Assembly: GCF_002161355.1 (NCBI RefSeq) | Contig: NZ_NFHL01000004.1 | Span: 186,001-250,000 of the forward strand | Length of the DNA stretch: 64,000 bases | Direction: 5' to 3' | From: Lachnoclostridium sp. An76 | GTDB taxonomy: Bacteria > Bacillota > Clostridia > Lachnospirales > Lachnospiraceae | Part shown: piece after piece, positions 7,270 through 64,000 of the stretch | How positions within the stretch are numbered: the stretch's first letter is position 1 | Layout: every line of letters starts with the position of its first letter | Notes under the pieces: model-generated | Databases searched by the model: none | The model's input: only the letters and a program-made list of their open reading frames with translations | What the model was told of the DNA's origin: nothing | Position numbers and translations under genes: made by a program

Positions 7270-7285
7270 GGAAGGGAGAACACAG

Positions 7286-8030: not shown

Positions 8031-8050
8031 AAAGATAAGGAGGTAACGTC

Positions 8051-15479: not shown

Positions 15480-15549
15480 TCATCTGATGATGATCAGTAT
15501 GATAAAAATATCTGAATAAGAAAAAGAAATTTGCCACCGGGTAAATTAC

Positions 15550-15606: not shown

Positions 15607-15648
15607 CGCTGCGGGCGGGGGCAGATAGAAAAGGAGAGTGCACATAAG

Positions 15649-15969: not shown

Positions 15970-16060
15970 CAAAAGAGAGAAATCGGTATTACTTCCTGAG
16001 TACATGGAACAATGGTCTGAACGAGTTTGGCTAATATGCACAACTACCGTTAAAAAAATA

Positions 16061-16078
16061 ACGTTAAAATATTAACAA
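16061..16078 (+). promoter_or_regulatory. Rex-type operator before adhE
   Basis: GTTAAAATATTAAC (16063-16076) is a GTTAA-N4-TTAAC palindrome matching the core of the Rex consensus TTGTTAANNNNTTAACAA. It lies just upstream of the -35. Rex, the NADH/NAD sensor, represses adhE in Clostridia. Assignment by motif only. Confidence 0.7.
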
Positions 16079-16086
16079 ATAACAGG

Positions 16087-16116
16087 TTGACAAATATTTA
16101 ACGATTCGTATATACT
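16087..16116 (+). promoter_or_regulatory. adhE promoter
   Basis: A perfect TTGACA -35 followed after 18 bases by TATACT. A second Rex-like half (TTTAAC) lies within the spacer. The transcript would have a leader of about 45 bases. Confidence 0.75.
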
Positions 16117-16168
16117 TAGTCTTGTGGGAACAAACCAGATTGATTCAATTACAGGAGGATTTATCAAA

Positions 16169-18787
16169 ATGGCAGAGAAAGAAAAAGTAGTCGTGCCTGA
16201 GATCATCGACAATGTAGAAGCTCTTGAAGCGAAGATGAAAGCGATGCGCGAAGCGCAGAAGATCTTCGCTACATTCACACAGGAGCAGGTGGACAAGATC
16301 TTCTACGAGGCAGCTATGGCAGCCAACAAGCAGCGTATCCCGCTGGCTAAGATGGCAGTCGAAGAGACACAGAGAGGTGTCATGGAAGACAAGGTCATCA
16401 AGAACCACTACGCAGCAGAGTACATCTACAATGCGTACAAAAACACAAAGACATGCGGCGTGATCGAAGAGGATCCGGCTTACGGCATCAAGAAAGTTGC
16501 AGAGCCGATCGGACTTGTCGCAGCGGTCATCCCGACGACAAACCCGACTTCCACAGCGATCTTCAAGACTCTGATCTGTCTGAAGACAAGGAACGCGATC
16601 ATCATCAGCCCCCATCCGGCTGCAAAGGCATGTACCATCGCAGCTGCAAAGGTTGTCCTTGACGCGGCTGTAAAGGCAGGCGCTCCGGAAGGGATCATCG
16701 GCTGGATCGATACTCCGTCACTTGAGCTGACAAACACAGTCATGAGAGACGCAGACATCATCCTGGCTACAGGCGGACCGGGAATGGTTAAGGCTGCTTA
16801 CTCTTCAGGAAAACCGGCTCTCGGTGTTGGCGCGGGTAATACACCGGTCATCATCGACGATACAGCAGATATCAGAATGGCAGTAAACTCTATCATCCAT
16901 TCCAAGACATTTGACAATGGTATGATCTGTGCTTCCGAGCAGTCTGTAACTGTTCTGGACAGCGTATACGACGCAGTGAAGAAAGAATTCGCATACAGAG
17001 GCTGCTATTTCCTGAAACCGGGCAAAGAGCTTGACGCAGTGCGCAAGACGATCATCATCAACGGCGCCCTGAACAGCAAGATCCCCGGAAAATCCGCATA
17101 CGAGATCGCAAAGCTCGCAGGCGTTGACGTACCGGAGAATACAAAGATCCTGATCGGTGAAGTAGAGTCTGTTGATATCTCCGAAGAATTTGCTCACGAA
17201 AAATTATCTCCTGTACTTGCTATGTATAGAGCAAAAACATTCGACGAGGCTCTTGAGAAAGCAGCTCAGCTCGTTGCTGACGGCGGATACGGACATACAT
17301 CCTCCCTGTACGTACACCCGGCAGAGAAGGAGAAGATCCAGAAGCACTACGAGGCAATGAAGACATGCCGTGTCCTGATCAACACACCGTCCTCACAGGG
17401 TGGTATCGGTGACCTTTACAACTTCAAACTCGCTCCGTCACTGACACTTGGATGCGGTTCATGGGGCGGAAACTCTGTATCAGAGAACGTAGGAGTAAAA
17501 CATCTTCTGAATGTGAAGACAGTTGCCGAGAGGAGAGAGAATATGCTGTGGTTCAGAACACCTGAGAAGGTATACTTTAAGAAAGGCTGTATGCCGGTAG
17601 CTCTGGACGAGCTTGGCACAGTGATGCACAAGAAGAAAGCGTTTATCGTAACAGATACATTCCTTTACAAGAACGGATATGCAAAACCGATCGAGGAGAA
17701 GCTCGATTCAATGGGAATCCAGCACACATGCTTCTATGATGTAGCTCCGGACCCGACACTGCAGTGCGCTCAGGAAGGCGTGAAGCAGATGAGATCCTTT
17801 GAGCCTGACACGATCATCGCTCTGGGCGGTGGTTCTGCAATGGATGCTGCCAAGATCATGTGGCTCATGTACGAGCATCCGGAAGCAAACTTCGAAGACA
17901 TGGCTATGGACTTCATGGATATCCGCAAGAGAGTATTCACATTCCCGAAGATGGGCGAGAAGGCTTACTTCGTAGCAATTCCGACATCTTCAGGTACAGG
18001 TTCCGAGGTGACTCCGTTCGCGATCATCACAGACGCTGAGACAGGCGTTAAATGGCCGATCGCTGACTACGCTCTGCTTCCGAACATGGCAATCGTTGAC
18101 GTTGACAATGCTATGACAGCTCCGAAAGGACTGACAAGCGCGTCCGGTATCGACGTTATGACACATGCGATCGAGGCATATGTATCCATCATGGCATCCG
18201 ACTACACAGACGGACTTGCAATGAAGGCTGTTAAGCTTGTATTCGACAACCTTCCGTCCGCATACGAGAACGGCGCGAACGATCCGAAGGCACGTGAAGA
18301 GATGCACAATGCTTCCTGCATGGCAGGTATGGCATTCGCAAATGCGTTCCTCGGCGTGAACCACTCCATGGCTCACAAGCTTGGTGCGTTCCATCATCTG
18401 CCGCACGGTGTTGCAAACGCCCTGATCCTGACAGAAGTCATGAGATACAATGCAGCAGAAGTTCCGACAAAGATGGGAACATTCTCACAGTACCAGTATC
18501 CGCATGCACTGCAGAGATACGCAGAGCTCGGACGCTTTGCCGGATGCACAGGAAATACAGACGAGGAAGTATTCGAGAACTTCATCGCAAGACTGGAAGA
18601 GCTCAAAGAGAAGATCGGCATCAAGAAGACGATCAAAGATTACGGCATCGACGAGAAATACTTCCTGGATACTCTGGATGACATGTGCGAGCAGGCATTC
18701 AACGACCAGTGTACAGGTGCAAACCCGAGATACCCGCTTATCAAGGAGATCAAAGAGATCTACCTGAAATGCTACTACGGGAAATAA
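16169..18787 (+). CDS. adhE: Bifunctional acetaldehyde-CoA/alcohol dehydrogenase
   Basis: An 872-residue AdhE. The N-terminal aldehyde-dehydrogenase half (about 1-440) carries the catalytic cysteine in NGMICASEQS. The C-terminal iron-dependent alcohol dehydrogenase half carries ALGGGSAMDAAK and the metal ligands NHSMAHKLGAFHHLPHG. It turns acetyl-CoA to acetaldehyde to ethanol, using two NADH, and forms spirosomes in known members. The ATG at 16169 follows ACAGGAGGATTTATCAAA; an earlier in-frame ATG at 16124 lies before the ribosome-binding site. The Rex operator and strong terminator suggest a monocistronic redox-controlled gene. Confidence 0.97.
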   Translation: MAEKEKVVVPEIIDNVEALEAKMKAMREAQKIFATFTQEQVDKIFYEAAMAANKQRIPLAKMAVEETQRGVMEDKVIKNHYAAEYIYNAYKNTKTCGVIEEDPAYGIKKVAEPIGLVAAVIPTTNPTSTAIFKTLICLKTRNAIIISPHPAAKACTIAAAKVVLDAAVKAGAPEGIIGWIDTPSLELTNTVMRDADIILATGGPGMVKAAYSSGKPALGVGAGNTPVIIDDTADIRMAVNSIIHSKTFDNGMICASEQSVTVLDSVYDAVKKEFAYRGCYFLKPGKELDAVRKTIIINGALNSKIPGKSAYEIAKLAGVDVPENTKILIGEVESVDISEEFAHEKLSPVLAMYRAKTFDEALEKAAQLVADGGYGHTSSLYVHPAEKEKIQKHYEAMKTCRVLINTPSSQGGIGDLYNFKLAPSLTLGCGSWGGNSVSENVGVKHLLNVKTVAERRENMLWFRTPEKVYFKKGCMPVALDELGTVMHKKKAFIVTDTFLYKNGYAKPIEEKLDSMGIQHTCFYDVAPDPTLQCAQEGVKQMRSFEPDTIIALGGGSAMDAAKIMWLMYEHPEANFEDMAMDFMDIRKRVFTFPKMGEKAYFVAIPTSSGTGSEVTPFAIITDAETGVKWPIADYALLPNMAIVDVDNAMTAPKGLTSASGIDVMTHAIEAYVSIMASDYTDGLAMKAVKLVFDNLPSAYENGANDPKAREEMHNASCMAGMAFANAFLGVNHSMAHKLGAFHHLPHGVANALILTEVMRYNAAEVPTKMGTFSQYQYPHALQRYAELGRFAGCTGNTDEEVFENFIARLEELKEKIGIKKTIKDYGIDEKYFLDTLDDMCEQAFNDQCTGANPRYPLIKEIKEIYLKCYYGK

Positions 18788-30967: not shown

Positions 30968-31034
30968 TGCAGGGGGATAAATGCGGGGTGATACCGGGGA
31001 GATGCAGGATAGAAGCAGAGTCCGCTCTGTTTTC

Positions 31035-31063
31035 TTGAAAGATGAGGGAAGGCGTGGTATAAT
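31035..31063 (+). promoter_or_regulatory. Promoter at the head of the 129-bp array
   Basis: TTGAAA, 17 bases, TATAAT. The following repeat copies keep the TATAAT but not a good -35, so this is the best promoter of the set. Confidence 0.65.
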
Positions 31064-31510
31064 GATTGCACATTGTGCAATCCGAAGCGGATGCTCCGCT
31101 TCGCCCTGCTCCGCAGGGATTATACCGGGAGCCACGGCTTGGAAAGTAAATGCCGCTGCGCGGCGCTTCCTTTCCTGCGCACGTGGTATAATGATCACAC
31201 ATTGTGCAATCCGAAGCGGATGCTCCGCTTCGCCCTGCTCCGCAGGGATTATACCGGGAGCCACGGCTTGGAAAGTAAATGCCGCTGCGCGGCGCTTCCT
31301 TTCCTGCGCACGTGGTATAATGATCACACGTTGTGCAATCCGAAGCGGATGCTCCGCTTCGCCCTGCTCCGCAGGGATTATACCGGGAGCCACGGCTTGG
31401 AAAGTAAATGCCGCTGCGCGGCGCTTCCTTTCCTGCGCACGTGGTATAATGATCACACGTTGTGCAATCCGAAGCGGATGCTCCGCTTCGCCCCGCGCTG
31501 CGGGAATTAT
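31058..31510. repeat. Three and a half tandem 129-bp repeats before tetR
   Basis: Units start at 31058, 31187, 31316 and 31445, spacing exactly 129 bases, and are nearly identical; the fourth is cut at about 31510. Each contains TATAAT, the palindrome, then hairpins CGAAGCGGA/TCCGCTTCG, CCTGC/GCAGG and GCCGC/GCGGC. Because 129 is a multiple of three, false open frames run through the array in several phases. Likely grown by unequal recombination or polymerase slippage, so copy number may vary between strains. Confidence 0.88.
31064..31082 (+). promoter_or_regulatory. Putative TetR operator
   Basis: GATTGCACATTGTGCAATC is a perfect palindrome (9-base arms, one central base) placed right behind the -10. 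The same site with one to three changes in the left arm recurs in each of the next copies (starting about 31193, 31322, 31451). Operator function for the downstream TetR protein is inferred. Confidence 0.6.
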
Positions 31511-31532
31511 ACCCAGGAGAGTAACTGAGATC

Positions 31533-50233: not shown

Positions 50234-50647
50234 ATGGATCATTCTTATCCTTATATTGCGTCTCTGACCAGAGAGCTGTTTCTTTTCTACGAAATGCGTT
50301 CCACCGCAAAGCTAATGGCAGAAGGAAATTCAGATATGGAAAAAGCTGACGTAAGTGCTTATCTTCTGGAACAGCTGAACTCCGCAATCGGCAATGGAGA
50401 GTTCATTGATAAAATTCAGTACGAGCCGCACGAACCAGGCGATGTACTGATGCTGACGGGGGTAGGTGAGGTGTTTCCGTTTATGAGAATCCATACGTTA
50501 CTGGAAGCCTTGCAACCGTATTTTTCGGATGTTCCGATTTTGGTTATGTATCCGGGGGAGTTTGATGGTCGTCATGTAAAACTATTCAATCGTCTGACAC
50601 CAAGTGATTATTACCGGGCATTCAATGTGATCGATCAAGGGAGATAA
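50234..50647 (+). pseudogene. BREX remnant: brxA 5' end fused in frame to brxB 3' end
   Basis: A 137-residue open frame. Residues about 1-34 (PYIASLTRELFLFYEMRSTAKLMAEG) resemble the N-terminus of BrxA (DUF1819). From about residue 36 (KADVSAYLLEQLNSAI) to the end (TGVGEVFPFMRIHTLL; LVMYPGEFDGRHVKLFNRL; DYYRAFNVI) it resembles the C-terminal half of BrxB (DUF1788). Full-length proteins are about 200 residues each, so an in-frame deletion joined the two neighbours. It may still be translated (AAGGAGATACGGCATT). BrxA and BrxB are core parts of type 1 BREX phage exclusion. Confidence 0.72.
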
Positions 50648-50798: not shown

Positions 50799-51024
50799 AA
50801 AAATCAAAAATTCCAGTGAACTGGAGTTTGCTGTTTTTTGCATTGAAAATGTAGCGGCAAAGCTGGGTGTGGATGCAGAGCGTGTTTATCAGGCATTTAC
50901 TGAACAGAGTGACATTCTGAACGGATATATCGTGCCAGAATATGAAATGCTGCATACCCAGAGCCGGGAATATATCGTTGACGATCTTGTTGATGTGATG
51001 AAAGAGAGGGGTGTGGAAGTATGA
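50788..51024 (+). CDS. DUF3791-family small protein
   Basis: A 78-residue protein: SSELEFAVFCIENVAAKLGV, then YEMLHTQSREYIVDDLVDVMKERG. This LHTQ-containing pattern is that of the DUF3791 family, regularly encoded before DUF3990 genes in Firmicutes. The stop overlaps the next start by four bases. A toxin-antitoxin-like partnership is inferred from the pairing. AAAGGAGGATTTGTAGATT precedes the ATG. Confidence 0.8.
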   Translation: MTDEKIKNSSELEFAVFCIENVAAKLGVDAERVYQAFTEQSDILNGYIVPEYEMLHTQSREYIVDDLVDVMKERGVEV

Positions 51025-51491
51025 TTCTATATCATGGTTCTTTCTTAGAGATCGCAAAGCCGGATTTGATTCATTCCCGTCCTAATGTGGACTTCGGGCG
51101 TGGCTTCTATGTTACGCCGTTGTATGAACAGGCAGCGAAGTGGTGCGGCAAGTTCAAACGCCGTGGAAAAGACGGTATCATTTCACGGTATGAATACGAT
51201 GAAAGCCGGGAAGCTGAACTGAAAACGCTGAAATTTGATTCTTATTCCGAAAAATGGCTGGATTTTATTCTGGATTGTCGCAGCGGAAAAGATCCGACAG
51301 ATTACGACCTTGTTGTGGGCGGTGTTGCAAATGATAAGGTGTTTAATACGGTAGAGCTGTTCTTTGATGGGCTGATTGATAAGACGGAAGCCATCAACCG
51401 CCTGCGTTATGAAAAGCCGAACCTGCAAATATGTTTCCGCACAGAGAAAGCGTTGTCTCTGCTGCATTTTGAAGGGAGTGAAACACTATGA
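51021..51491 (+). CDS. DUF3990 protein (ADP-ribosyltransferase-like fold?)
   Basis: A 156-residue protein starting MILYHGSFLEIAKPDL with DFGRGFYVTPLYEQAAKWC. The YHGS...FGRGFYVT...A pattern resembles the NAD-binding core of ADP-ribosyltransferase-fold families, with which I believe DUF3990 is grouped. It is sandwiched with four-base overlaps between two small proteins. A toxin or effector role is plausible but unproven. No signal peptide. Confidence 0.78.
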   Translation: MILYHGSFLEIAKPDLIHSRPNVDFGRGFYVTPLYEQAAKWCGKFKRRGKDGIISRYEYDESREAELKTLKFDSYSEKWLDFILDCRSGKDPTDYDLVVGGVANDKVFNTVELFFDGLIDKTEAINRLRYEKPNLQICFRTEKALSLLHFEGSETL

Positions 51492-52171: not shown

Positions 52172-52288
52172 TGTTTGGTACTATCCCAGACAAAGATGAT
52201 CGGGATTATGGATGTTTACAATCACGTTACGGATCGGGAATGGATTGACAAGGAGATTGTCAAACTGGATGAAGTTCAGGTCATGTAA
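52172..52288 (+). pseudogene. C-terminal tail of a tyrosine integrase
   Basis: In-frame residues KMIGIMDVYNHVTDREWIDKEI end at the TAA at 52286. MDVYNHV is the catalytic-Tyr block near the end of phage and ICE integrases. The rest of the gene is missing. The stretch 52020-52171 shows no recognisable gene. Confidence 0.65.
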
Positions 52289-52996
52289 AGGAAATCTGCC
52301 ATGCACCTCACGAACCGCGTTCCTTCAGTCAGGGCTGTCGCCGTATAGGTTCCAAACCGAGCATGATTTTCCGTGAGCAAGCTCCTGAAAGGCAACCCGA
52401 TTTTGTCTCTGCATGGCTTGTAGCTTGCGCGGAAATGGTGTAAAAATGGTGTAGTAAGTCATTTATGAAGCAAATTAAAAAATCGTAACTCCTTAGAAAG
52501 CGCGTAAAATCAAGCTTTTTTCGGACCTCCTAAAAAATCTTAAAAAATTAGCACTCACCTCTTGGCTCGTTTGGGGTGGTTTTGTCCTGTGGCGTCAGAG
52601 CCCGTAAAGCCTTATTTTACAAGGTTTTTACGGGTTCTTATTTTTTGTCTGAGAGCGTCAAAAATCGTCATTTTTTGCGAAAATGGTGTAGTAAATGGTG
52701 TAGTAAAATGGCCGGGGGAGATGTAGAGAGGGGTGGAAATAATCGATAGCGAAAAGCATCAAAATTTGATAAAATTAATCATATCATTGTGATTAATAAA
52801 GAAACTTCTTATTTGCATAGGGAATGAGCATATTAAGCAGTTTTATTGAAGTTTGGAACTTAGACCAAATTCATTTATTAATTATAGCGGTTGGGGTTAA
52901 AGTAAGAAATGAAAGAACAGTTCCATTTCGAGAGTGGATAGTCAGATTAAGAAAACTTACTTCCTTGATCCGTTGGATATGGAGAGAGGGTGAAAA
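52289..52996. other. Non-coding scar with direct repeats
   Basis: About 700 bases with no credible gene. It contains four copies of ATGGTGTA (52435, 52446, 52683, 52695; three extend to ATGGTGTAGTAA), which look like integrase arm-type sites. It also contains the right hairpin repeat at 52587-52664 and AT-rich sequence up to the next frame. Probably the former end of an integrated element. Confidence 0.5.
52587..52664. repeat. Hairpin repeat, right copy
   Basis: AGAGCCCGTAAA and TTTACGGGTTCT form the stem, then GAGAGCGTCAAAAA. Related to the copy at 49769. With an integrase tail about 300 bases upstream, an att-associated role is inferred. Confidence 0.7.
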
Positions 52997-53383: not shown

Positions 53384-53677
53384 ATGGCAAAGGGTAGCAG
53401 ATACGATCAACAGTTTAAGGAGAATGCAGTCAGGTATCGTTTGGAACATCCAGAACTCTCACTTCAGAAGGCAGCTGAGAATCTGGGAATCAGTGATTCC
53501 GCTCTCAAGACGTGGCTACGAGCGGCCAGAGAGAACGAAGGGAGCGTACCAACACGGGGATCCGGGAATTATTCCAGTGATGAGGCGAAAGAGATCGCAC
53601 GTCTCCAGCGTGAACTAAGGGATACAAAGGATGCGCTTGAAATTCTAAAAAAAGCCATCAGTATCCTGGGAAAATGA
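53384..53677 (+). CDS. IS3-family transposase OrfA
   Basis: A 97-residue DNA-binding protein: HTH YDQQFKENAVRYRLEHPELSLQKAAENLGISDSALKTWL, then a leucine-zipper-like ELRDTKDALEILKKAISIL. It binds the IS ends. AAAGGAGGCAGTACAGGC precedes the start. Its stop overlaps the orfB ATG (ATGA). The run CTAAAAAAAG at about 53644-53653 is a candidate -1 frameshift site for making OrfAB. Confidence 0.9.
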   Translation: MAKGSRYDQQFKENAVRYRLEHPELSLQKAAENLGISDSALKTWLRAARENEGSVPTRGSGNYSSDEAKEIARLQRELRDTKDALEILKKAISILGK

Positions 53678-54597
53678 CAGAGGCTGTCTATACTGCCACA
53701 GCGGAGTATATTGTGGAAATGGAGCAGCGTCCGGTGAAGCACCACGTCTCTGTCAGCGGGGTACTGAAACATCTTGGTGTTTCACGATCCGGTTATAATG
53801 CTTGGAAAAAAAGAGTCCCTTCTGCCACGGAAAAACACCGTGGGGAGATCAAACAGAAAATCCGAAAAATCTATGAAGATTCCCACCAGAACTATGGAGC
53901 CCCTAAGATCACAAGGGAATTGTGGAAAACCGGTGAAAAAATCGCAGTGAAAACTGTGGCGAATTACATGCGTCAGATGGGAATCAAAGCCCAATGGGTA
54001 AAGCCATATGTACAAACAACCATAGATTCTGATTTCAGTTCGAAACTGCATAACATTCTGAATGAACAGTTCAATCCCGCTCAGCCGGATGCTGTATGGG
54101 TGTCGGATATCACTTATATCTGGACGTTTGACGGCTTTGTATACTTAACCAGCATTATGGATCTGTATTCCCGGAAAATCATCGCATGGGTCTTGGGCGA
54201 AACACTGGAAGCATCCCATGTGGTGGAATGTATCGAGAAAGCAAAGAAAATCCGCAGAATAGCACATCCGCTTATCATACATACAGACCGTGGCTGCCAG
54301 TATGTATCGGATGCATTCCGTAAAGCAACAGAGGGGATGGTAAACAGCTATTCAAAAAAAGCATATCCATGGGACAATGCGTGTATTGAATCGTTCCATG
54401 CATTACTGAAAAGGGAGTGGATCAACCGTTTTAAAATTTTTAATTACCGGCATGCATATAAGCTGGTATTCGAATATATAGAAACATTTTATAACACAGT
54501 GAGGACACACAGCCATTGTGGATATCTTTCGCCAGATCAGTATGAAAAAGAATACTATGCAGCGTTAGATGAAAGAGCTGAAGCTTTAGCAGGGTAA
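53674..54597 (+). CDS. IS3-family transposase OrfB (DDE integrase)
   Basis: A 307-residue rve-type integrase. An HTH_21 domain (HQNYGAPKITRELWK) precedes the catalytic core, with first Asp in VWVSDITYIWTFDGF, second Asp in IIHTDRGCQYVS and Glu in NACIESFHALLKREW. It catalyses strand transfer of the IS. Full length, with no frameshift. Confidence 0.92.
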   Translation: MTEAVYTATAEYIVEMEQRPVKHHVSVSGVLKHLGVSRSGYNAWKKRVPSATEKHRGEIKQKIRKIYEDSHQNYGAPKITRELWKTGEKIAVKTVANYMRQMGIKAQWVKPYVQTTIDSDFSSKLHNILNEQFNPAQPDAVWVSDITYIWTFDGFVYLTSIMDLYSRKIIAWVLGETLEASHVVECIEKAKKIRRIAHPLIIHTDRGCQYVSDAFRKATEGMVNSYSKKAYPWDNACIESFHALLKREWINRFKIFNYRHAYKLVFEYIETFYNTVRTHSHCGYLSPDQYEKEYYAALDERAEALAG

Positions 54598-54644: not shown

Positions 54645-55365
54645 GACCAGTCCATGCTTCTGAAACGCAATACTGGACAGAAAGTGCGGAGCGAGCAGGC
54701 TATATCGAAAAGGTTATGAATGATGGTTCTATCGGTTCGACCTTTAATGAGGGCATTATGAAAGTTGAGGGCGAAACTGCCTACTGCGTGGACATCAACA
54801 CCAATTTCAAGAACGGCTACAAGACCAGAGCCGACGCAAGCACACGCATGAGTACCGACCAGATTTCCGACGTTGCCCTCTCTCTGGAATACGTCAAGCA
54901 GTACGCACAGAGCCACAGCGAGCTGAATTATAAACAGGTCTATCTTCTTGAACAGTGCGTCGTATGGCAGAGATTGAGCGTTCATCTTGGCTGGCAATGC
55001 GATAACGTCAGAGCTTCCTATGATGAAATCTCAAAAGCCGTACAGGACGAGGTTTACACTGGGGCGAAAGCCTTTGCCAGCGAGAACAAGGGACGCTATG
55101 AATGTGGCGGTTACATCTACTCTGGCGAGGGACAGGACATTGGACAGTTCTGGGAGAAACTTGCCGTAGGGAACGCTACCCTTAAAAAGACTTGCAGTAA
55201 TACCAGCATTACCGACGGGAACGGGCTTTACTCTATCGCTGGTGCGACTTATGGTGTCTATTCTGATAAGGATTGTACGAAACAGCTTACCACCCTTACG
55301 ACTGATAACAGCGGAAATACTGATATCGTGGAAGTAAAGGTTGGCACAGTCTACATCAAAGAGCT
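54645..55365 (+). pseudogene. Fragment of an ICE surface protein (thioester plus Cna-B domains)
   Basis: The frame from 54645 reads GPVHASETQYWTESAERAGYI, then a thioester-type domain (GETAYCVDINTNFKNGYKT; LNYKQVYLLEQCVVWQRLSVH) and the start of a SpaA/Cna-B fold (NGLYSIAGATYGVYSDKDC). The signal peptide is missing on the left, next to the IS, and the sequence breaks at VGTVYIKE on the right, where group II intron sequence begins. Such long adhesin-like proteins are carried by integrative conjugative elements of gut Firmicutes. An internal ATG at 54716 gives a 217-residue frame, probably not functional. Confidence 0.78.
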
Positions 55366-56142
55366 TTGAGGCTTATAAAAGAGTGAAAGCAAACAAAGGC
55401 AGTGCTGGTATAGATGGCATGGGTTTTGAGAAATTTGAAGAAAGACTGAATAATAATCTTTATAAAATCTGGAACCGGATGAGTTCGGGAAGTTATTTCC
55501 CATCTCCAGTGATGGCGGTAGAAATACCAAAGAAATCAGGAGGAACCAGACGACTCGGAGTACCGACTATAGCAGACCGGATTGCACAGATGGTCGCAAG
55601 AGCATATGTAGAACGGGCAGTGGAGACTATGTTTTGTGAAGATTCATATGGATACAGACCACACAAATCAGCAGTAGACGCGTTTGAGAAGACAAGGAAA
55701 AGATGTTGGAAATATGACTATGTTATAGAATTAGATGTAAAAGGATTGTTTGACAATATCGACCATGAATTGTTACCTTAAATGTAAGGATGGTGTGATA
55801 CGAAATAACTTTATCGCAACGGTCAGTAAAACGGCAGCGAAAGGTTTCAGGGATAAGATCAAAGCACTGGAGATACACAAGAAAATCGGGTGCAAGATAG
55901 ACATGATTGCAGAATTGCTGAATCCGATGCTTAGAGGGTGGATGAATTACTTTGGGAAATTTAATCCGTCAGCAATGAAAAACACGTTACAGTGTATTGA
56001 ACACAGACTGATAAAATGGGCAATGTGCAAGTATAAAAGTTTTCGTGGACGCAGGCAGAGGGCTGAGAAATGGCTTTCGTCTATCAGAAAACGAGAGCCG
56101 AAGCTGTTTGCTCATTGGAGCAGGATGTACTCGTATTGCTAA
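55363..56142 (+). pseudogene. Group II intron reverse transcriptase/maturase, deleted
   Basis: The first piece (55363-55781) has RT blocks SFEAYKRVKANKGSAGIDG, VEIPKKSGGTRRLGVPTIADR and ELDVKGLFDNIDHELL. It then jumps to the maturase part (55750-56142): GFRDKIKALEIHKKIG, NPMLRGWMNYFGKF and the HNH-less end KREPKLFAHWSRM. The YADD active-site block and thumb are lost, as is the N-terminus. LtrA-type ancestry; not active by itself. Confidence 0.85.
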
Positions 56143-56149
56143 ATGATAA

Positions 56150-56220
56150 GAGCCGTATGAAGGGAGACCTTCACGTACGGTTCCGTGAGAAGTTTGAGGT
56201 GAAAGTCCTCTTACTTACTC
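56150..56220 (+). ncRNA. Group II intron domains V-VI
   Basis: GAGCCGTATGA, a GGGAGACC loop region, TCACGTACGGTTCCGTGAG form the conserved domain V hairpin right behind the maturase stop. GAGGTGAAAGTCCTCTTAC follows as the domain VI branch-point helix. It marks the 3' end of the intron. The 5' ribozyme domains I-IV are not present in this window. Confidence 0.8.
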
Positions 56221-56301
56221 GACTGAGAGGTCGGAATTTCTCAACTATGAGAAATTCCTCTTACTCGATTGGTATATTGAAAAAAAATAAATTATAGGTG
56301 G

Positions 56302-56330
56302 TTGTATATGATGCTGAACAGCGATATATT
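56302..56330 (+). promoter_or_regulatory. Candidate promoter of the dynamin-like operon
   Basis: TTGTAT, 17 bases, TATATT, about 145 bases before the first GTPase gene. It is the first promoter-like signal after the intron scar. Confidence 0.55.
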
Positions 56331-56476
56331 ATCTTTAAGGCTTAAATTATAGTACAGATATACTTTCTGATCATTATGGAAACTGATTATTTGACCGAGC
56401 CTGCCTGAGTATAACGCAGATAATGAATATGTAGAAAATGAATAAAGAAATCAAAAGAAAATGGAGGTATGAGGAT

Positions 56477-58174
56477 ATGATCCATAAAAAACAGCTTATT
56501 GGCAAACTTGAGAAGATTGAGAGTATACTGGTCCCGTTTGAACTGGCGGAGAAGATCAGAAAAGATAAGGATAATCTGATAAGTGATATACGGAACTATC
56601 GATTTCGGGTTTTGTTGACAGGAGGATTTTCTTCAGGAAAGAGCGCACTTCTTAATGCACTTATGGAGAGATATGTACTCCGGGAAGATCAGGCTCCTGA
56701 GACAACGATTGCAACAGAGCTCGTATGGGACGGTGAGGAGTATATTGAGGCAATAAATGAAGAGGGGATAACACGAAGGTTTGATATGATCAGTCCTGGC
56801 AGTGGCATGCCTCAGCCATCTGATGATTATGCGGATGGACTTAATACGAAAGATTACCGATGTCTTGTATATCATTTGAATAATGACTTTCTGAAAAAGA
56901 CTCAGGATATTATTCTTGTGGATATGCCCGGGATTGAGTCCAATATCGACAGCCATAACAAAGCTATTTCGCAGTATATCACCAGAGGTAGCGCATATCT
57001 GTTTTTGGTAAGCTGTGAGGACGGTACATTGCGGCGGTCTTCGATTGATTTTCTCAGGGAGGCGTCTCAGTACCCTCAGAGCATGATTTGCCTCATATCA
57101 AAATGTGATCTGCGATGCGAAGAGGAGACAGAACAGGTGTGCAACCAGGTAAAGGAGGATATCTATGCGGTCTACGGGCAGCAAGTCCCGACGGAGAAGA
57201 TCAGTGTTTATGATGAAGATTTGGCATCGCATATCTGCAGACTTCTGGCCGGACTTGATTTGCAGGAGATATTTGAACAGAAATATGTGGGGAGGATTAA
57301 TTCGCTAGTCCTTCTTGCGGAAAGCCTGCTGAGTTCTGCGGCAGATGCTCTCTGCCTGGATGTGACGGAGTTGGACAGGCGAATTGAGGAATGCAGCAGA
57401 CACAGGGCAGAGGCTGAAAAAGAATTTATTGTGCAGAGAAAACGACTTGAGAAAAATTACCGGCAGACAGTGCTGCCTTCGATCAGCTATGATCTTAGGG
57501 CTGCTCTTACAGCTCAGACCGACAGGTTGACAGAAGCACTTTCGACAAGTCCAGAGGCGTTCAGTGCAGCGGTTAATTCGATTATCCGTCCGGTGCTCTA
57601 TAATTCGACACATAAAAATATCGAGAGCAGTTTTGAAGCCTATGTTGCGGGTGTGGATGACTCCCTTTTTAAAGATGACAATGATAAGATAAAGCAGGTA
57701 CTTACGGAAGGATTGAGCCATATCAGGGATTATGTGACGGATGGAAATGCAGAGGGCTCTGAAAAAGGGAATGAGTCTTTCGGTCTTTATCAGCTGACGG
57801 CGTCCGCACTTGCAATCACAACAGATATTATCGCACCGGTCATTGAACTTGTTATTGTACTTCTGCCGAATATTCTTGATTTCTTTGCCGGATTTGGACG
57901 AAAACAGAAATATGAAGAGCTCAGACAGAAGGTACAGAACATCATCATACCACAGATTGTTGATCAGATGATCCCGAAGATTGAGGAAGCATTGGATGAA
58001 ACAAGGGCGGCTGTTATTACCGAATTTGAAGAAAAGATGAAAACCATGATGCAGGCGCAGGAAGAGACGCTGGAAAAATGCCTTGAGGAGAAGAAACAGC
58101 GTACACAGGATCATGAGGCTGAAGAAGAAAAGATCAGAGAAGCGATACATGAGCTGAACAGTCTTATTATGTAA
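56477..58174 (+). CDS. Dynamin-like large GTPase, first of three
   Basis: A 565-residue protein. G1 P-loop GGFSSGKSALLN (about 49-60), G2 Thr in APETTIAT, G3 DMPGIES (149-155), G4 SKCD (208-211). A helical stalk region follows. A strongly hydrophobic pair of segments at about 437-473 (LTASALAITTDIIAPVIELVIVLLPNIL) could be a membrane-inserting paddle, as in bacterial dynamin-like proteins. The C-terminal coiled coil is rich in Glu/Lys. The ATG at 56477 is preferred to 56438 because TGGAGGTATGAGGAT precedes it. First gene of a four-gene operon. Confidence 0.85.
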   Translation: MIHKKQLIGKLEKIESILVPFELAEKIRKDKDNLISDIRNYRFRVLLTGGFSSGKSALLNALMERYVLREDQAPETTIATELVWDGEEYIEAINEEGITRRFDMISPGSGMPQPSDDYADGLNTKDYRCLVYHLNNDFLKKTQDIILVDMPGIESNIDSHNKAISQYITRGSAYLFLVSCEDGTLRRSSIDFLREASQYPQSMICLISKCDLRCEEETEQVCNQVKEDIYAVYGQQVPTEKISVYDEDLASHICRLLAGLDLQEIFEQKYVGRINSLVLLAESLLSSAADALCLDVTELDRRIEECSRHRAEAEKEFIVQRKRLEKNYRQTVLPSISYDLRAALTAQTDRLTEALSTSPEAFSAAVNSIIRPVLYNSTHKNIESSFEAYVAGVDDSLFKDDNDKIKQVLTEGLSHIRDYVTDGNAEGSEKGNESFGLYQLTASALAITTDIIAPVIELVIVLLPNILDFFAGFGRKQKYEELRQKVQNIIIPQIVDQMIPKIEEALDETRAAVITEFEEKMKTMMQAQEETLEKCLEEKKQRTQDHEAEEEKIREAIHELNSLIM

Positions 58175-58190
58175 CAGGAGTGTGAAAAAC

Positions 58191-60446
58191 ATGATAGAAC
58201 AAAGGAAAAGTGACAGAGAGTTCCTTGATTTGCTGGAACGGATAGGGAAAGAACTGGCAGAGGACAACAGCGTACTGAATCCGGAAAATGTATTTGTATT
58301 TCAGAAAGGTGTGAAAAATGCCAGAGAACAGATAGAAGTGATAAAGAAAGAGGGGCGGAGGATCAGTGTTGGAATTATCGGCTGCGTGAAAGCAGGAAAA
58401 TCCACTTTTTTGAATGCGCTTTTGTTCGGCGGCGAAGAGGTTTTGCCGCGGGCGGCGACCCCTATGACTGCTTCTCTTACAAGAATATCCTATTCGGAAA
58501 AGCCAAAGGCAAAAGTAGTATTTTACAAAAGCTATGACTGGAAGAATATCGAGAACTTTAATCAGCTCTATGAGAAGAGAATTGATGATGAGATCGCGAA
58601 AAGAAAAGAAGAGAATGCAAAAGCTGCGGGTAAAAAGAAAAAAAACGGTCTGTTTTCTGTGGATAGAGAAACGGTAGAACGTCAGATCAGCCTCGAGCTT
58701 CCTGACAAATATAAATCGTGTCATGAACTTATAAAAATGGTAAAAGAGAATAGGTTGAATGTAGATGACTATCTTGGAAAGGCGGAAGAGATTGAGATAG
58801 ACAGCAAGAAGCCGCTTGGCGAGAGTTTGAAAGAGTATGTGGGAGCAACCGGAAGATATACTCCAATCGTTAATTATATTGAGCTGGAAGTCGATAATCC
58901 CCTGCTTCAGGACCTGGTGGTTGTAGATACCCCCGGCCTTAACGACCCGATTACGTCCAGGGGAGAGCGAACAAAGGATTTCCTGGAAGCGTGTGACGTT
59001 GTGTTTATTGTCAGCAATATGAGTCAGTTCCTTCCGGAGGAAGACATCAATATGATTGTGAAAAATATTGGTGACACAAGTATCCAAAGAGCGTATGTCA
59101 TCGGTTCGCAGCTGGACAGTGCACTCAGGCAGCAGCCACGATCTCTGGCCAGTATCCAGACGGCGTTTGACAATTGCTGTATCAGCGCAGGGAGGCGCTT
59201 CCGTGATGAGATCGACCAGGCATCCCGCATCCGGCCTGACAGTGTACTTCTTCAAGAGTTGAAGAAAACATCTCCTGAATTTGTTTCTGCTATGGCTTTT
59301 GGGATTGCAGCAAAGCAGAAAAAAGGAATCCGGCTGGAAAAGGATGAATTAAATGTCATTACGAATCTGGAAAAGCGCTTTTCGGATTTTCATACTGTTA
59401 TAGAAAGCCCCGACGACTTGGCAGAACTTGCCAATATCGAAGGGGTGAGGAAAAGAGTACTGGAAAAAGTCCGCAGTGAAAACAGGAAGATCGCAGAAGG
59501 AAAACTGCAGGACTATAAACCGCGCACTGCACTGAGTATGGCAAAAAATCTTGAACGGATGGAAGAGGAGTGCTATGCAAATCTGAAAATGCTGCGGACC
59601 GGAGATATGGAGACGCTGGGTGAAAAGCTGAAGCTGCTGGAGGACAATCTGGATTCTATTCGGAGCAATATAAGAAATATTTTTGAGGGTCAGGATGTGC
59701 AGTGCCGTAAACAAATACAGAGCCTCAAGACAGAAATCGCCGGTGAAATGAGTGCTCATGACGGGCTGGAAATCGGGACACGGACGAGGACGGAAATGTG
59801 GACGGAACAGTATGGGCTTTTCGGTTTGTTTAAACGAACGAATCGCGAAGTGGTAAGGGATGATGTGGCTGATGTGTCTCAGGTTGTAAAGCTTATTAGT
59901 GGGTTTGGTGCAAGAGTCATGGAAATGATCAATGAGCAGCTGGACAATATTTTTGACATCAAAGGACTGAGCGACCAGATCAAAGGATGTGTGCTTGGAG
60001 CATTTGATCTCAGTGATGATAAATTTGACCGCAATGAGATCCTGCTCCCGTTAGAAAATGCCATGACAAATTTGACAGTCTATGAAGTGGAATTTGATTT
60101 TATGGATGAGATCAGCGAAACAATCTACAACGCGTTTCCGAACGGTCAGGCTGTAAATGAAGAGATTCATTGTCTGCGCCAGCTTCAGGAGAAAGAAATG
60201 CGAAAAGTGCTCAAAATATTCTGCCAAAAACTTGACGAAACGGCTGATAATATATCTGCAAATATGAATGAGCAGGCGGCAGTTTTTGTAGACAGTATCC
60301 AGAAAAAAATCTCAGTGAATATTGAACATATACGCCGGCTTCTGGATAACAGAGAAGAAAATGTCAGAGAATATGAAGCGGTGATCAGCCGGCTTCGCAG
60401 CAGCAGACAAGCACTTGTCAGCTATGCCGGGAAGGAGAAGGGCTGA
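58191..60446 (+). CDS. Dynamin-like large GTPase, second of three
   Basis: A 751-residue protein. G1 GCVKAGKSTFLN (64-75), G2 ATPMTAS (about 89-95), G3 VVDTPGLNDP (244-253). The G4 position reads VIGSQLD instead of N/TKxD, an unusual form. A Lys-rich insertion (KEENAKAAGKKKKNG, about 140-153) lies between G2 and G3. The second half is long helical/coiled-coil without a clear membrane segment. The ATG at 58191 follows AGGAGTGTGAAAAAC; the gap to the first GTPase gene is 16 bases. Confidence 0.85.
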   Translation: MIEQRKSDREFLDLLERIGKELAEDNSVLNPENVFVFQKGVKNAREQIEVIKKEGRRISVGIIGCVKAGKSTFLNALLFGGEEVLPRAATPMTASLTRISYSEKPKAKVVFYKSYDWKNIENFNQLYEKRIDDEIAKRKEENAKAAGKKKKNGLFSVDRETVERQISLELPDKYKSCHELIKMVKENRLNVDDYLGKAEEIEIDSKKPLGESLKEYVGATGRYTPIVNYIELEVDNPLLQDLVVVDTPGLNDPITSRGERTKDFLEACDVVFIVSNMSQFLPEEDINMIVKNIGDTSIQRAYVIGSQLDSALRQQPRSLASIQTAFDNCCISAGRRFRDEIDQASRIRPDSVLLQELKKTSPEFVSAMAFGIAAKQKKGIRLEKDELNVITNLEKRFSDFHTVIESPDDLAELANIEGVRKRVLEKVRSENRKIAEGKLQDYKPRTALSMAKNLERMEEECYANLKMLRTGDMETLGEKLKLLEDNLDSIRSNIRNIFEGQDVQCRKQIQSLKTEIAGEMSAHDGLEIGTRTRTEMWTEQYGLFGLFKRTNREVVRDDVADVSQVVKLISGFGARVMEMINEQLDNIFDIKGLSDQIKGCVLGAFDLSDDKFDRNEILLPLENAMTNLTVYEVEFDFMDEISETIYNAFPNGQAVNEEIHCLRQLQEKEMRKVLKIFCQKLDETADNISANMNEQAAVFVDSIQKKISVNIEHIRRLLDNREENVREYEAVISRLRSSRQALVSYAGKEKG

Positions 60447-61663
60447 TGGCTTTAAAAAGAAACTTTGATTTCGATTACAGCGCCCCGATACTGACAGGCA
60501 ACAGATACTTGGATAACCGGGAAAAAGGACTTGAACTTGTGGCACGCATCATTTCAGCGGAGCCAGATAAATACAGTGGATATGACAGAATAGACCGTAT
60601 TATGGATGAGGAGATCCTGCTTTCAACCGGAAGTCTGAGGCTGGATGATGAGCTTGAGGTATACGCACGTTTAACTGCGCTCAGCGACAGACTCATGGAA
60701 GGAAAGTACAGGCTTTTAAAAGAGCGTACTGTGATCGGACTGGGAGGGAAATTCAGCGCGGGTAAATCATTGTTTATAAACTCCCTTCTTGGGAAAGATG
60801 AGCTCCCGGTTGATCAGGCTCCGACCACATCAGTTCCTACATATATCATATCAGGGAAGAAGGATGAGGTGTTTGCCTATACATTAAAAGGAACTCATCT
60901 TCCTCTGGACGGGGAGGCTGTAAAAGCAATTTCACACGGATTTCAGAAGGAGTACGGACTTGGGCTTGCCCGTTATATTTTATATCTATCAGTAAGGGTA
61001 GAAGGTTTTATGCCTGAAGTGGCACTTCTGGATACCCCGGGCTACAATAAGCCGGACGGGGGGACTGAAGATGAGTTTTCTGATTTAAGGAAGGCGTATA
61101 CCCAGCTTCGCTCTATAGACTCGTTGATCTGGCTGCTCGATGTGCAGAACGGAACGATTACACAGAGTGATATAGATTTTATCCGTCAGCTCAACATGAA
61201 TTCAAAGATACTGATCGTAGTCAATAAATGTGATCTTAAAACGGAAGAAGAATATGCGGTTGTTGTCAAAAGCGTCCGGGAATCAGCAGAGCATGCGGGG
61301 ATCCCTCTTTTTGATGTGGTCCCTTATTCCTCCATGGATCCGGAGGCATATGAAGGTATTGAAAAAATACATGAATTCTTTGAGTATTCCCGAAAAACCG
61401 GGCTGAGGTCCGAGGACGTTGCCGCAGAAGCGGAGGGGATTCTTTCACGGATCAATAAGTCTTTTTCCGGACGCATAAAGCAGCTGGATTCTGTTGGGAA
61501 TAGTCTGTCAAAGGCAATTTGTAAATCCTCAAATATTTTTGAAATGCAGTCCCTGGTGGAAATGTATGGTGAGATCAGCCTTGAATCTTCCAATATAAAA
61601 CATGACCGGGAAAAGTTTAATAAGACAGCAGGCAGGCTGCGGCATATGATAGAGCGTTTGTGA
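60446..61663 (+). CDS. Dynamin-like GTPase, third and shortest
   Basis: A 405-residue protein. G1 GGKFSAGKSLFIN (100-112), G2 DQAPTTSVPT, G3 LLDTPGYNKPDGG (195-207), G4 VVNKCDL (258-264). A helical N-terminal arm precedes the G domain; the helical part behind it is short (about 70 residues) and lacks a membrane segment. So it carries a complete nucleotide site but a reduced stalk. The start overlaps the previous stop (TGATGG, with A of ATG shared), so it is translationally coupled. Confidence 0.85.
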   Translation: MALKRNFDFDYSAPILTGNRYLDNREKGLELVARIISAEPDKYSGYDRIDRIMDEEILLSTGSLRLDDELEVYARLTALSDRLMEGKYRLLKERTVIGLGGKFSAGKSLFINSLLGKDELPVDQAPTTSVPTYIISGKKDEVFAYTLKGTHLPLDGEAVKAISHGFQKEYGLGLARYILYLSVRVEGFMPEVALLDTPGYNKPDGGTEDEFSDLRKAYTQLRSIDSLIWLLDVQNGTITQSDIDFIRQLNMNSKILIVVNKCDLKTEEEYAVVVKSVRESAEHAGIPLFDVVPYSSMDPEAYEGIEKIHEFFEYSRKTGLRSEDVAAEAEGILSRINKSFSGRIKQLDSVGNSLSKAICKSSNIFEMQSLVEMYGEISLESSNIKHDREKFNKTAGRLRHMIERL

Positions 61664-61682
61664 CTGAGGGGAGAATAATAAA

Positions 61683-64000
61683 ATGCAGGATAATAGTGAA
61701 GAATATTTAAAACTGATATCACGTTTGTCTTCCGTAAAAAAGGAAGACAGGACAGAGTCGGGGAGAAGCTGGGAGAAGCTGTCGCAGTTTTTGAATACTG
61801 AGGCGGCAGCAGTGATCGAGGACAGCACATATCCGAAAAAAAGCGTCCTTAAGGCAAAAATCGACAACGCTCTGGATGACGCGCAGCTGTTTCTGCGCGA
61901 GCCGTATCTGTATGGAAAACCTGCAGTTGGCGTGCTTGGGGGAAAAGCAGCCTCGGCGGAAGCATCTTTTCTTCACCAACTTCTTAATTCATATATACCG
62001 TATGAGCTTTGTCTTCAGCGGTCGCTTCCATGTGCTGTATACAAGGGGGAACGTGTTCAAACAGCAGCAGTTGGAAAGAGCGGGAGCCTTATTCCGCTTG
62101 ATATGGATGAATATTCATTGATGTTGGAGCTTTATAAGCAGAAACTGCGGATGGATGATCTGGCTGCAGGGATTACATTTTCCCTTCCGGATATGTCTGA
62201 AGGATATAATTTGATTCGTTTTCCCTGGTATGCGCAGGAGAAAGAAGAAGAGTATATACGTTTGGCAGGGCTTTGCAGCATATTTTTCATACTTTGGGAC
62301 TCGGAATATCCAGACCGGTATGTGCCGAGAAGTGTAACAGATCAGGAAGTTCCGATAATTATTGCGGTGAGAGAAGAGGACGGCTCTGCTGTAAAATTTG
62401 CGGAAGAACTCCGCAGCAGAATACCAGGAGTTGATATTTCGGTAAAGAGTATAAAAGAATGTGCGTCGCTTATGGAAAAGCAGAATGGGATTCAATATAA
62501 TTTTACTGTTGGAAACAGGATCTTTGCAGCTTTGTTAAAGCTTTTGGCTTATGAAAAATCTGAAGTGAAGAGGCATGCTGCAAATATAGAAAATCTTCAG
62601 CGCAGCGCAGTCTTTGTAGAAAATCTTCAGAATACACTCGACGAAATCAGATCCGTTAAATCTGCGCAGAAAAACAGGGAGCTGAAGAATATCGAACGAC
62701 TTACCGATGTTCTGAAGGAGACGGAAACGCTGCTGCAGGATTTTGAAAATACGCTTCTGCTTCAATATCCTTCTGAGGTGCGGGAAATGCTGAAAAGTGG
62801 AAAGTCCGCAGCATCTCAGCAGGAAATGTATTCTGAGGAGGAAGTTCTTTTCGTAATTGGATCATTTGAGAATTCGAACAGCGATCAATCGAATGAGGAT
62901 ATAGCCATGCGTATCGTCCGGTCGTTGACTGAGAGAGGATTCAAATATGCAGCTCTGGACAATCTCTGGCTTCTGAAAGCAAGGGGGCAGCAGGTTCCGG
63001 AAAATATGTTGAATGATCTTATGTGCTATACAGGAAAAGACATTCGTTATATGCGGGCTGTGATTTGTTTCGCAGAGGAATTAAAGATTTCTGACAAAAC
63101 AGCTGGCTGTATAGCTTCACAGATTCCGGCGAATACAGCAGATGAACTCTATTATCTGGCATATTATACAGAATATACAAGTGGAAATACGGCAAAAACT
63201 GTCAGTGCATATGAAGAGGCGTTTGAAGGCGGAAGCAGAAAAGCAGGAGAATGGCTCACAGATCACTATTTTGGAAAAGCAGAAGACAAAATTAATCTTT
63301 CTGCTGATTTCAAGACACGTAAGGCAAAAAAACTTGCGGACAGCCTTATTCCGCGTGCTGCAAGATATTATGGTATGTATTGCATTCTGAATCAAAAGAG
63401 GTTTTACAGACAGGGAATAACGTATCTGCGGATCGCTGCTGCGCTTGGCGATATACCTGCGATAAGGTTTTACGCGGGTTATCTTTTTGAACAAAGGGGC
63501 TCGGATGATAAAGAGACCGTTTATGCAGCTTTGGAATTGTATAAGTATATGGATAATCATAATATTGCGGAAGAGAATTTGTCTGACAAGATAGGAATAT
63601 TGTATTATAGATGCAAAGATTATGTTAACGCCAAAAAGTGGCTTCAGAAAAAGCATAAAATGCCGGAGGCGGCTTATTTGCTCGGCAGTATGTACTATAG
63701 TGGGACGGGATCCACAGCAAAGAACCCTGCAAAGGCACAGGAACTGTTAGGCTATGCTGCTTCCAACGGAAACAGTACCATAAGAAAAAATGCAAAGCAA
63801 AAATTACAGAACATAGAGAAAGAAAAAGAGAAACGAGTAAAAAAACTTGCAGAACAGAAAAAAACAGAATATAAGAAGACTGCAACTTATTCAAGCCATA
63901 CTGTCAGCAGCAGTTCAAGTGATGACTGCTTTATTACTACTGCTGTGTGTGGTTCGGAAGGAAAATCAGATAACTGCGAGGAACTCACAGCGTTTCGGCG
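61683..64000 (+). CDS. Decayed-GTPase/Sel1-repeat protein with CFI-box C-terminus (cut by window edge)
   Basis: Open from the ATG at 61683 to the window end, at least 772 residues. Near residues 80-120, KPAVGVLGGKAASAEASFLHQLLN looks like a dynamin-type P-loop region that has lost the GKS lysine-serine core, and YNLIRFPW stands where DTPG would be. A central coiled coil (about 300-360) is followed by helical TPR/Sel1-like repeats (ITYLRIAAALGDIPAIRFYAGYL; AAYLLGSMYYSGTGS). A Lys/Glu and Ser-rich linker leads to CFITTAVC at about 748, the CFI-box. AGGGGAGAATAATAAA precedes the ATG. Fourth operon gene, 19 bases behind the third. Confidence 0.8.
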   Translation, partial: MQDNSEEYLKLISRLSSVKKEDRTESGRSWEKLSQFLNTEAAAVIEDSTYPKKSVLKAKIDNALDDAQLFLREPYLYGKPAVGVLGGKAASAEASFLHQLLNSYIPYELCLQRSLPCAVYKGERVQTAAVGKSGSLIPLDMDEYSLMLELYKQKLRMDDLAAGITFSLPDMSEGYNLIRFPWYAQEKEEEYIRLAGLCSIFFILWDSEYPDRYVPRSVTDQEVPIIIAVREEDGSAVKFAEELRSRIPGVDISVKSIKECASLMEKQNGIQYNFTVGNRIFAALLKLLAYEKSEVKRHAANIENLQRSAVFVENLQNTLDEIRSVKSAQKNRELKNIERLTDVLKETETLLQDFENTLLLQYPSEVREMLKSGKSAASQQEMYSEEEVLFVIGSFENSNSDQSNEDIAMRIVRSLTERGFKYAALDNLWLLKARGQQVPENMLNDLMCYTGKDIRYMRAVICFAEELKISDKTAGCIASQIPANTADELYYLAYYTEYTSGNTAKTVSAYEEAFEGGSRKAGEWLTDHYFGKAEDKINLSADFKTRKAKKLADSLIPRAARYYGMYCILNQKRFYRQGITYLRIAAALGDIPAIRFYAGYLFEQRGSDDKETVYAALELYKYMDNHNIAEENLSDKIGILYYRCKDYVNAKKWLQKKHKMPEAAYLLGSMYYSGTGSTAKNPAKAQELLGYAASNGNSTIRKNAKQKLQNIEKEKEKRVKKLAEQKKTEYKKTATYSSHTVSSSSSDDCFITTAVCGSEGKSDNCEELTAFR

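Follow-up and report, generated by a model that had tools for sequence, protein, structure and literature searches.

The G domains of dynamin-type GTPases pair across their nucleotide face. In bacteria such GTPases have mostly been described singly or in pairs, and one of these systems, Eleos, is said to have been first reported by Millman and colleagues. Excerpts of the published accounts give the following picture. DynA of Bacillus subtilis forms clusters at the membrane and delays lysis by phage (PMC8844932). Cj-DLP1 and Cj-DLP2 of Campylobacter jejuni show activity only when combined, and they tether membranes (PMC6104087). LeoA by itself gave no sign of binding or hydrolysing nucleotide (PMC4159319), and Eleos is paired with 'Dynamins' in PMC11811056. 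The locus described here, an operon of three dynamin-like GTPase genes (D1, D2 and D3) and a pseudo-GTPase gene (S4), lies at the end of a 64,000-nucleotide stretch of the Lachnoclostridium sp. An76 genome. This stretch, called the window below, covers positions 186001-250000 of contig NZ_NFHL01000004.1 in a 3.43-Mb draft genome of 26 contigs. The operon is real, conserved and mobile, and its multi-dynamin variant is absent from the literature searched: no three-dynamin operon with a pseudo-GTPase was found in the open-access literature (subscription papers and preprints were outside the scope), and a term search of the excerpted conflict-systems paper PMC7159879 gave no mention of dynamin.

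Organization of the operon

The anatomy of the operon and its conservation are nearly certain. The four genes are read in one direction, as follows (window positions).

56477-58174, plus strand: D1, dynamin-like GTPase of 565 amino acids; G1 GGFSSGKS, G3 DMPG, G4 SKCD
58191-60446, plus strand: D2, dynamin-like GTPase of 751 amino acids; G1 GCVKAGKS, G3 DTPGLN
60446-61663, plus strand: D3, short dynamin-like GTPase of 405 amino acids; G1 GKFSAGKS, G3 DTPGYN, G4 NKCD
61683-64274, plus strand: S4, pseudo-GTPase of 863 amino acids; the window ends at 64000 and the final 274 bases lie outside it

The intergenic gaps are 16, -1 and 19 bases. The ribosome site GGAGG stands ahead of the D1 start and AGGAG ahead of that of D2. 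Alternative starts are found for D1 at 56438, giving an open reading frame (ORF) of 578 amino acids, and for D2 at a GTG codon at 58182, giving 754. The original prediction, made from the letters of this DNA, had given the same GTPase lengths and gaps on which the re-measurement settled, and had described distinct G-motif versions in the three proteins, with which a pattern scan of the window agrees. Its operon, real in itself, was started at 56302, 175 bases ahead of the likely first codon of D1. Its fourth gene does encode a long repeat protein, one that leaves the window and comes to its full 863 residues at 64274.

All three GTPases score above the cut-off of the Pfam family Dynamin_N (27 bits), with 61.5 bits for D1, 78.8 for D2 and 51.2 for D3; S4 has no match to this family. 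Intact G1 and G3 motifs, each in one frame, are present in D1, D2 and D3 of the window. The G4 pattern [NTS]KxD is seen as SKCD in D1 and NKCD in D3, and was not seen in the D2 of the window. The three strongest Dynamin_N matches of the whole genome are the operon trio (E 1.7e-22, 1.2e-16 and 3.2e-13; the next is 1e-4). Because these three adjoin and their orthologs also remain together, a chance gene neighbourhood was ruled out.

D1, D2 and D3 are separate ortholog groups. The signature of D1 in most loci is GxFSxGKS with DMPG (DTPG in L070 and L015, DIPG in L077); its G3 motif was not found in L073 and L074. D2 carries GxVKAGKS and DTPGxN, with slight departures in L015, L016, L073, L074 and L077, and D3 carries GxFSxGKS and DTPGY, from which L016 departs. 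When profiles of the three were compared with solved structures, D1 was nearest to Cj-DLP2 (5owv_C, E 1.1e-19), D2 to Cj-DLP1 (5owv_A, E 4.8e-26) and D3 to Cj-DLP2 (E 1e-14). LeoA appeared among the matches for D1 alone, at E 0.0096 (for D3, 60 of the 70 matches were listed).

A hydrophobic, paddle-like segment lies at residues 458-476 of the 578-residue D1 ORF (mean hydropathy 2.31) and is a putative lipid-binding element. Most full-length D1 orthologs have such a stretch, with a mean hydropathy of about 1.9-2.6; it is missing from the three D1 copies of the type C loci described below. The D2 and D3 of the window have no hydrophobic segment, and D1 is the candidate for the GTPase that had been proposed to bear a membrane paddle. 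A model of D1 built with two sequences (pLDDT 62, pTM 0.48) places the G domain ahead of long helices that enclose the hydrophobic helix. In a Foldseek search with this model, the top ten places all went to bacterial dynamin-like proteins (E 5.3e-12 to 4.3e-7, TM-scores of only about 0.3); BDLP, Cj-DLP, IniA, SynDLP and LeoA are among the best matches.

Origin of S4

S4 has three parts: about residues 1-330 form a pseudo-GTPase derived from D3, Sel1-type repeats follow, and residues 749-820 are a CFI-box-CTERM domain. Judged by profile comparison, the N-terminus is a copy of D3 that has gone dead. When three S4 N-termini were made into a profile, it proved collinear with D3 over 326 columns (E 1.9e-13; D1 0.016, D2 0.1), and a profile of five sequences matches D3 at E 4.3e-18 (probability 99%). 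Descent from D1 or D2 was rejected on the values obtained with the latter profile, 9e-4 and 0.26. As controls, five column shuffles and a reversed D3 all gave E 0.42 or worse. In the alignment, the P-loop and the DTPGYN motif of D3 face degenerate letters in S4. The G1 and G3 patterns are absent from all five distinct S4 orthologs, one of which (L069) has NKxD-like letters elsewhere. The broken nucleotide site predicted for the fourth protein is borne out by these missing motifs, and the profiles add its descent from D3. With a pLDDT of 54.7, and values mostly below 50 in the N-terminus, the S4 model from AlphaFold is too poor to support a pseudo-GTPase fold.

The S4 profile matches a solved Sel1 protein at E 6.5e-23. 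Against the Pfam Sel1 family, which has a gathering threshold of 30.7 bits, the S4 of the window, cut at the window end, scores 25.8, that of L069 33.8 and that of L070 27.6. The CFI-box-CTERM model (NCBIfam NF041770, cut-off 40) is matched by the S4 of the window with 68.8 bits, and is exceeded in four of the five orthologs, the exception being L070. The term CFI-box was not found in the open-access literature searched.

Conservation of the gene set

The order D1-D2-D3-S4 is called type A. Its relatives, with 17-49% identity to the window operon, are found in an Oscillospiraceae metagenome-assembled genome (MAG), in two other genomes of the window's order, and on Escherichia plasmids. The Oscillospiraceae copy (L008) is 43, 39, 49 and 34% identical in D1, D2, D3 and S4; the two others (L069 and L070) come from two further families of the order. 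Ten Escherichia plasmid records match D2, D3 and the C-terminal half or less of S4. Four of them were fetched: three (L011, L024 and L026) have the type A order, and L025 has D1-D2-D3 up to the end of the record. They were counted as a single locus (L024). In L026, S4 is annotated in two parts.

DNA was fetched for 22 D2 loci, Escherichia being counted once, and 17 of them carry D1, D2 and D3. The trio is present in L012 and L072 with a split or truncated D1, is incomplete on the short contigs L040 and L078, and is without D3 in L073 and L074. Two loci that are identical to the window over whole contigs (L006 and L007) were not counted as independent. Among 392 genomes of the order, 16 have D2, as does one of 398 genomes of the phylum, with the window's own genome included in both counts. 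D3 occurs in 14 of the 16, lying on another contig in the fragmented genome G556. At E 1e-20, D3 was found in two of 150 genomes of the family, again including the window's. A two-row D3 profile used for the class found two of 391 and was too narrow; the D3 profile A5 took in the longer D3-like proteins from L012, L014 and L015 only in part. The S4 N-terminus occurs in four of the 392 genomes, all of them D2-positive, and each time directly behind D3. The probability of this co-occurrence by chance is 1.9e-6, or 0.0012 when two copies of the window operon are removed. The proposal that the GTPases form a set is thus upheld by the three distinct proteins remaining together in other genomes, and within the window's lineage neither genes mostly apart nor a fixed housekeeping locus was found.

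Distances and trees were calculated for 13 of the 22 loci. L012 and L015 (split or divergent D1), L076 (a near copy of L075) and the incomplete trios of L016, L040, L072, L073, L074 and L078 were left out. Between the three GTPases, the pairwise distances correlate (r 0.883, 0.855 and 0.954, p 0.0001), which partly reflects shared descent. The five type A loci cluster in the trees of D2 (support 85/86) and D3 (93/93), in neither case with full support. In the D1 tree, Calditerrivibrio falls among type A, and a type A grouping is not rejected (p-AU 0.408). A Photobacterium copy clusters with type B, described next, in all three trees. The clustering of type A, Escherichia included, therefore suggests that whole modules were moved between phyla.

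Two further gene orders were found. Type B consists of D1, D3, one or more helical-looking genes and then D2 (L013, L017, L067, L068, L071 and L072, and in pieces L078). In four of these seven loci (L017, L068, L071 and, in pieces, L078), D2 is followed by a HerA-like ATPase of about 1030 amino acids, which was not found behind D2 in L067, L072 and L013. One middle gene, in L017, has a weak beta-helix match. The middle proteins of type B were rejected as kin of S4 (profile E 0.088), and an impression by eye that these proteins are TerB-like is not claimed, as Pfam gave no such match. Type C is D1-D3-D2 (L075, L076 and L077). D3 measures 405-420 amino acids in type A, mostly 499-542 in type B and 772-782 in type C; the accessory genes and the D3 tail therefore change together. 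Types A and B are probably two systems within one superfamily.

Some loci show further peculiarities. L071 has two D3 copies in one operon (1909-5871), one of them of 453 amino acids, near a cyclic oligonucleotide-based antiphage signalling (CBASS) system. Behind the type C operons L075-L077 stands a conserved gene of about 490 amino acids, whose product in L076 is a BspA-type leucine-rich repeat protein. At L017, a further GTPase of 383 amino acids (15033-16184; LeoA match 2.5e-14) lies near a tyrosine recombinase, seen by eye. A radical-SAM-like protein next to the type A operon of L070 (1065-2054) has a weak viperin match over its first 90 residues (1.4e-12).

The insertion site and signs of mobility

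The operon is accessory in the window's lineage. The following features lie upstream of it.

50234-50647, plus strand: bacteriophage exclusion (BREX) remnant; first 36 residues BrxA, remainder BrxB
51021-51491, plus strand: DUF3990 protein; PADLOC candidate defence family PDC-M13B
52401-52547, plus strand: direct repeat R1, 147 nt; 83% like 64793-64939 outside the window
52545-52647, plus strand: direct repeat R2, 103 nt; 88-90% like 64322-64424 outside the window
53674-54597, plus strand: IS3-type transposase ORF, read by eye
55341-56142, plus strand: two overlapping ORFs resembling a group II intron reverse transcriptase/maturase, read by eye
56148-56223, plus strand: group II intron end (Rfam RF00029), just upstream of the operon

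Just two copies of R2 were found in the draft genome, and they bracket the operon; the R1 pair lies partly outside the R2 pair. In a congener without the operon at this site (G1300), sequence like 52208-52373 runs straight into sequence like 64767 onward. About 23 kb before that junction hold genes for BrxP, BrxC, PglZ, BrxL, a DndA-like cysteine desulphurase and AbiD, together with a Tn916-type integrase gene and an unmatched gene of 794 amino acids. The integrase gene (L096 2911-4435) is followed about 105-120 bases later by the 103-nt repeat. On the strength of the repeats and of the integrase and BREX genes at the G1300 site, the repeat pair is likely to be an attachment site or the recombination edge of a defence hotspot. 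The original prediction had set the operon behind a BREX locus and mobile elements, and the BREX genes of the congener agree with an accessory location at this site. The 'decayed BREX' placed directly upstream is a single BrxA/BrxB fusion fragment and lies about 5.8 kb away, with mobile DNA between.

Two tandem hsp20 genes (L003 13127-14197) stand just downstream, at what is taken to be the right edge of the hotspot. They are placed outside the operon because hsp20 occurs in 55 of 58 genomes of the genus, including three (G833, G857 and G870) in which D2 was not found. In another congener (G1318), an IetA-like AAA ATPase (L080 16365-17870, E 1.6e-29) precedes the hsp20 pair, and the site may therefore hold another defence cargo. 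Far upstream, at 30981-31530, about four near-identical tandem units of about 130 bases stand ahead of TetR-like sequence, as judged from ORF translations.

The window operon recurs base for base in another species of the genus (G878). This copy sits on an 8.9-kb MAG contig, so that a binning error is possible; L007 and the G878 contig (G878:C97) have the same length and the same gene coordinates. Of 72,556 plasmid records, the D2 of the window and the D3 of Photobacterium each match 15, and the two sets are identical. The D3 of the window matches 18, the three extra ones weakly. Plasmids bearing D2 and D3 come from five genera in two phyla. A phage origin was rejected for both genes, the D3 of the window having no match in 50,697 phage records and D2 a single match over 8% of its length. 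Two peptide patterns for each protein, run against viral contigs, gave no relative of D3 or D2. S4 had 11 matches in viral contigs, all confined to the C-terminal region and spanning at most query residues 692-854.

Proposed function and alternatives

The operon is given an even chance of encoding a horizontally moved, hetero-oligomeric machine that guards the membrane under the regulation of S4, with an anti-phage role as part of this reading. This reading starts from what the analysis showed: the gene anatomy, the conservation of the unit, the ancestry of S4 in D3, the signs of mobility and the site held in common with BREX. A complex acting on the membrane is likely, by analogy with related dynamins. 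D1 would be the membrane-inserting subunit, by way of its paddle. D2, nearest to Cj-DLP1 of the Campylobacter tethering pair, would be its partner, and by the same analogy D1 and D2 would form a membrane-binding pair. D3 would be a soluble GTPase switch. S4 may pair with D3 across the G-domain face, the dead G domain controlling the live one, and its Sel1 and CFI-box part may sense a trigger that S4 would couple to GTP loading. The trigger would be envelope damage, most likely from phage infection or the entry of another element. In response, the GTPases would come together on the inner membrane, which they would tether, seal or block.

Whether the role is one of defence is about even. As to defence islands or mobile elements, BREX, HsdR, CBASS, plasmids or an integrase are found at some loci, and other loci have ordinary surroundings. 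HsdR lies 3.2 kb from the L008 operon with a beta-galactosidase gene between; a reverse ORF of 925 amino acids beside that operon is antisense to the beta-galactosidase gene and was discarded. A CBASS cyclase and an E1-E2 protein start 5.5 kb behind the D2 of L071. Two operons of type B (L017 and L068) have WYL regulators immediately upstream. A scan of flanking genes covered 93 of 152 candidate proteins from 14 loci, and 25 of the 49 matching families were listed; 58 proteins of L012-L015, L073 and L074 and one of L075 were left out for size. One member also matched a DpdF model.

Several observations weigh against a defence machine of this kind. Most of the flanking proteins scanned have no match to a recognised defence effector, and the families listed from that scan point to only three unmistakable ones (HsdR, the cyclase and E1-E2), at two loci. 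The neighbours in L073-L077 are metabolic or other ordinary chromosomal genes, mostly as read by eye, and two genera carry D1-D2 or D1-D3-D2 in ordinary-looking chromosomal surroundings (again mostly by eye). In L016, a Clostridia genome, D2 has no D1 nearby, and D3, a further gene and D2 lie inside a flagellar-like cluster (5345-10457, by eye). Two congeneric genomes carry D2 without D3. The Escherichia copies are in plasmid maintenance regions, and their D2 is whole in five of ten plasmids, falls into two or three pieces in four, and is interrupted by an insertion sequence in one; D2 is possibly a costly gene. Only 5 of 5,426 E. coli genomes contain 80% or more of the operon query, itself the carrier of an insertion sequence. 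According to the excerpted PMC12595487, dynamin genes predicted on a different mobile island were inactive against the phages tested in that work. Confidence in the structure models is low (pLDDT 54.7 for S4 and 62 for D1).

Three other explanations have been considered. A general membrane-repair or stress system, acting against antibiotics, bacteriocins or envelope damage, would be accessory without being phage-specific. Bacterial dynamins have been linked to membrane surveillance (PMC8844932, in excerpt), two small heat-shock genes follow the operon, and several relatives lie in surroundings without defence genes, all of which would fit. The heat-shock genes, however, fall outside the operon by their distribution (hsp20 in 55 of 58 genus genomes, three of them without a D2 found), and the operon shares its site with BREX and AbiD; a repair system is considered rather unlikely. 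A lower probability still is assigned to a plasmid or conjugation module, in which membrane remodelling would aid mating-pair formation, entry exclusion or maintenance. The Photobacterium trio (L013 10094-16867) does lie between traU and traN, the fetched Escherichia copies lie between parA/parM and repE on IncF plasmids, and D2 and D3 together are on 15 plasmid records; yet 11 of these 15 plasmids are typed as non-mobilizable and many copies are chromosomal.

A lineage-specific housekeeping function in division, sporulation or flagella is very improbable. It would draw on the kept malQ-like neighbour of D1-D2 in two species of one genus (L073 and L074) and on the order D3-x-D2 in a flagellar cluster of G317, both noted by eye. 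Such a function is hard to square with the rarity of D2 (16 of 392 order and 1 of 398 phylum genomes) and with the congener G1300, whose site is without the operon.

Beyond the window operon, the membrane-guarding reading may be extended to a mobile multi-dynamin immune superfamily, somewhat short of an even chance, in which a GTPase trio swaps its regulatory modules: the D3-derived pseudo-GTPase with Sel1 and CFI-box parts on the one hand, helical proteins and a HerA-like ATPase on the other. If true, this superfamily would be the bacterial counterpart of GBP/Mx immunity with its many members, and would carry its own pseudo-GTPase as a decoy or regulator. A trio with a self-derived pseudo-GTPase lets the division of labour among dynamins be studied. 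How a dead G domain regulates live ones is a question also open for animal immune GTPases, and the Escherichia plasmid copies make the operon testable in laboratory strains.

Comparison with known systems

The CFI-box-CTERM proteins (NF041770) share a domain with S4, in which it is joined to a pseudo-GTPase. Like the operon, DynA of B. subtilis has tandem dynamins and is tied to membrane guarding and phage lysis (PMC8844932, in excerpt), but DynA is one fused protein and the members of the trio are separate. Trio members that match the DynA model NF052648 (cut-off 1600) score 26.7-39.9 bits, with 26.7 for D1 and 35.5 for D3 of the window. Identity with DynA or CrfC was rejected, the scores being far below the cut-offs.

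Eleos, the LeoA-LeoBC system of enterotoxigenic E. coli (PMC4159319), is likewise an island operon of dynamin-like genes, and LeoA and LeoBC are members of the PADLOC defence library. D1-D3 match the LeoA and LeoBC models weakly and over part of their length (best 5.4e-11; best stretch D1 residues 35-102). The operon has no leoB/leoC split, and a counterpart of S4 was not found in the excerpted text of PMC4159319. The operon was rejected as an Eleos system because these matches are weak and partial and the G1 and G3 motifs of each GTPase stand in one frame.

The Cj-DLP1/Cj-DLP2 pair of C. jejuni (PMC6104087, in excerpt; PDB 5owv) likewise consists of adjoining, unlike GTPases, and the profiles align D1 with Cj-DLP2 and D2 with Cj-DLP1. 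Compared with that pair, to which it is distant in sequence, the operon adds a third GTPase and a pseudo-GTPase scaffold, and it is accessory and mobile.

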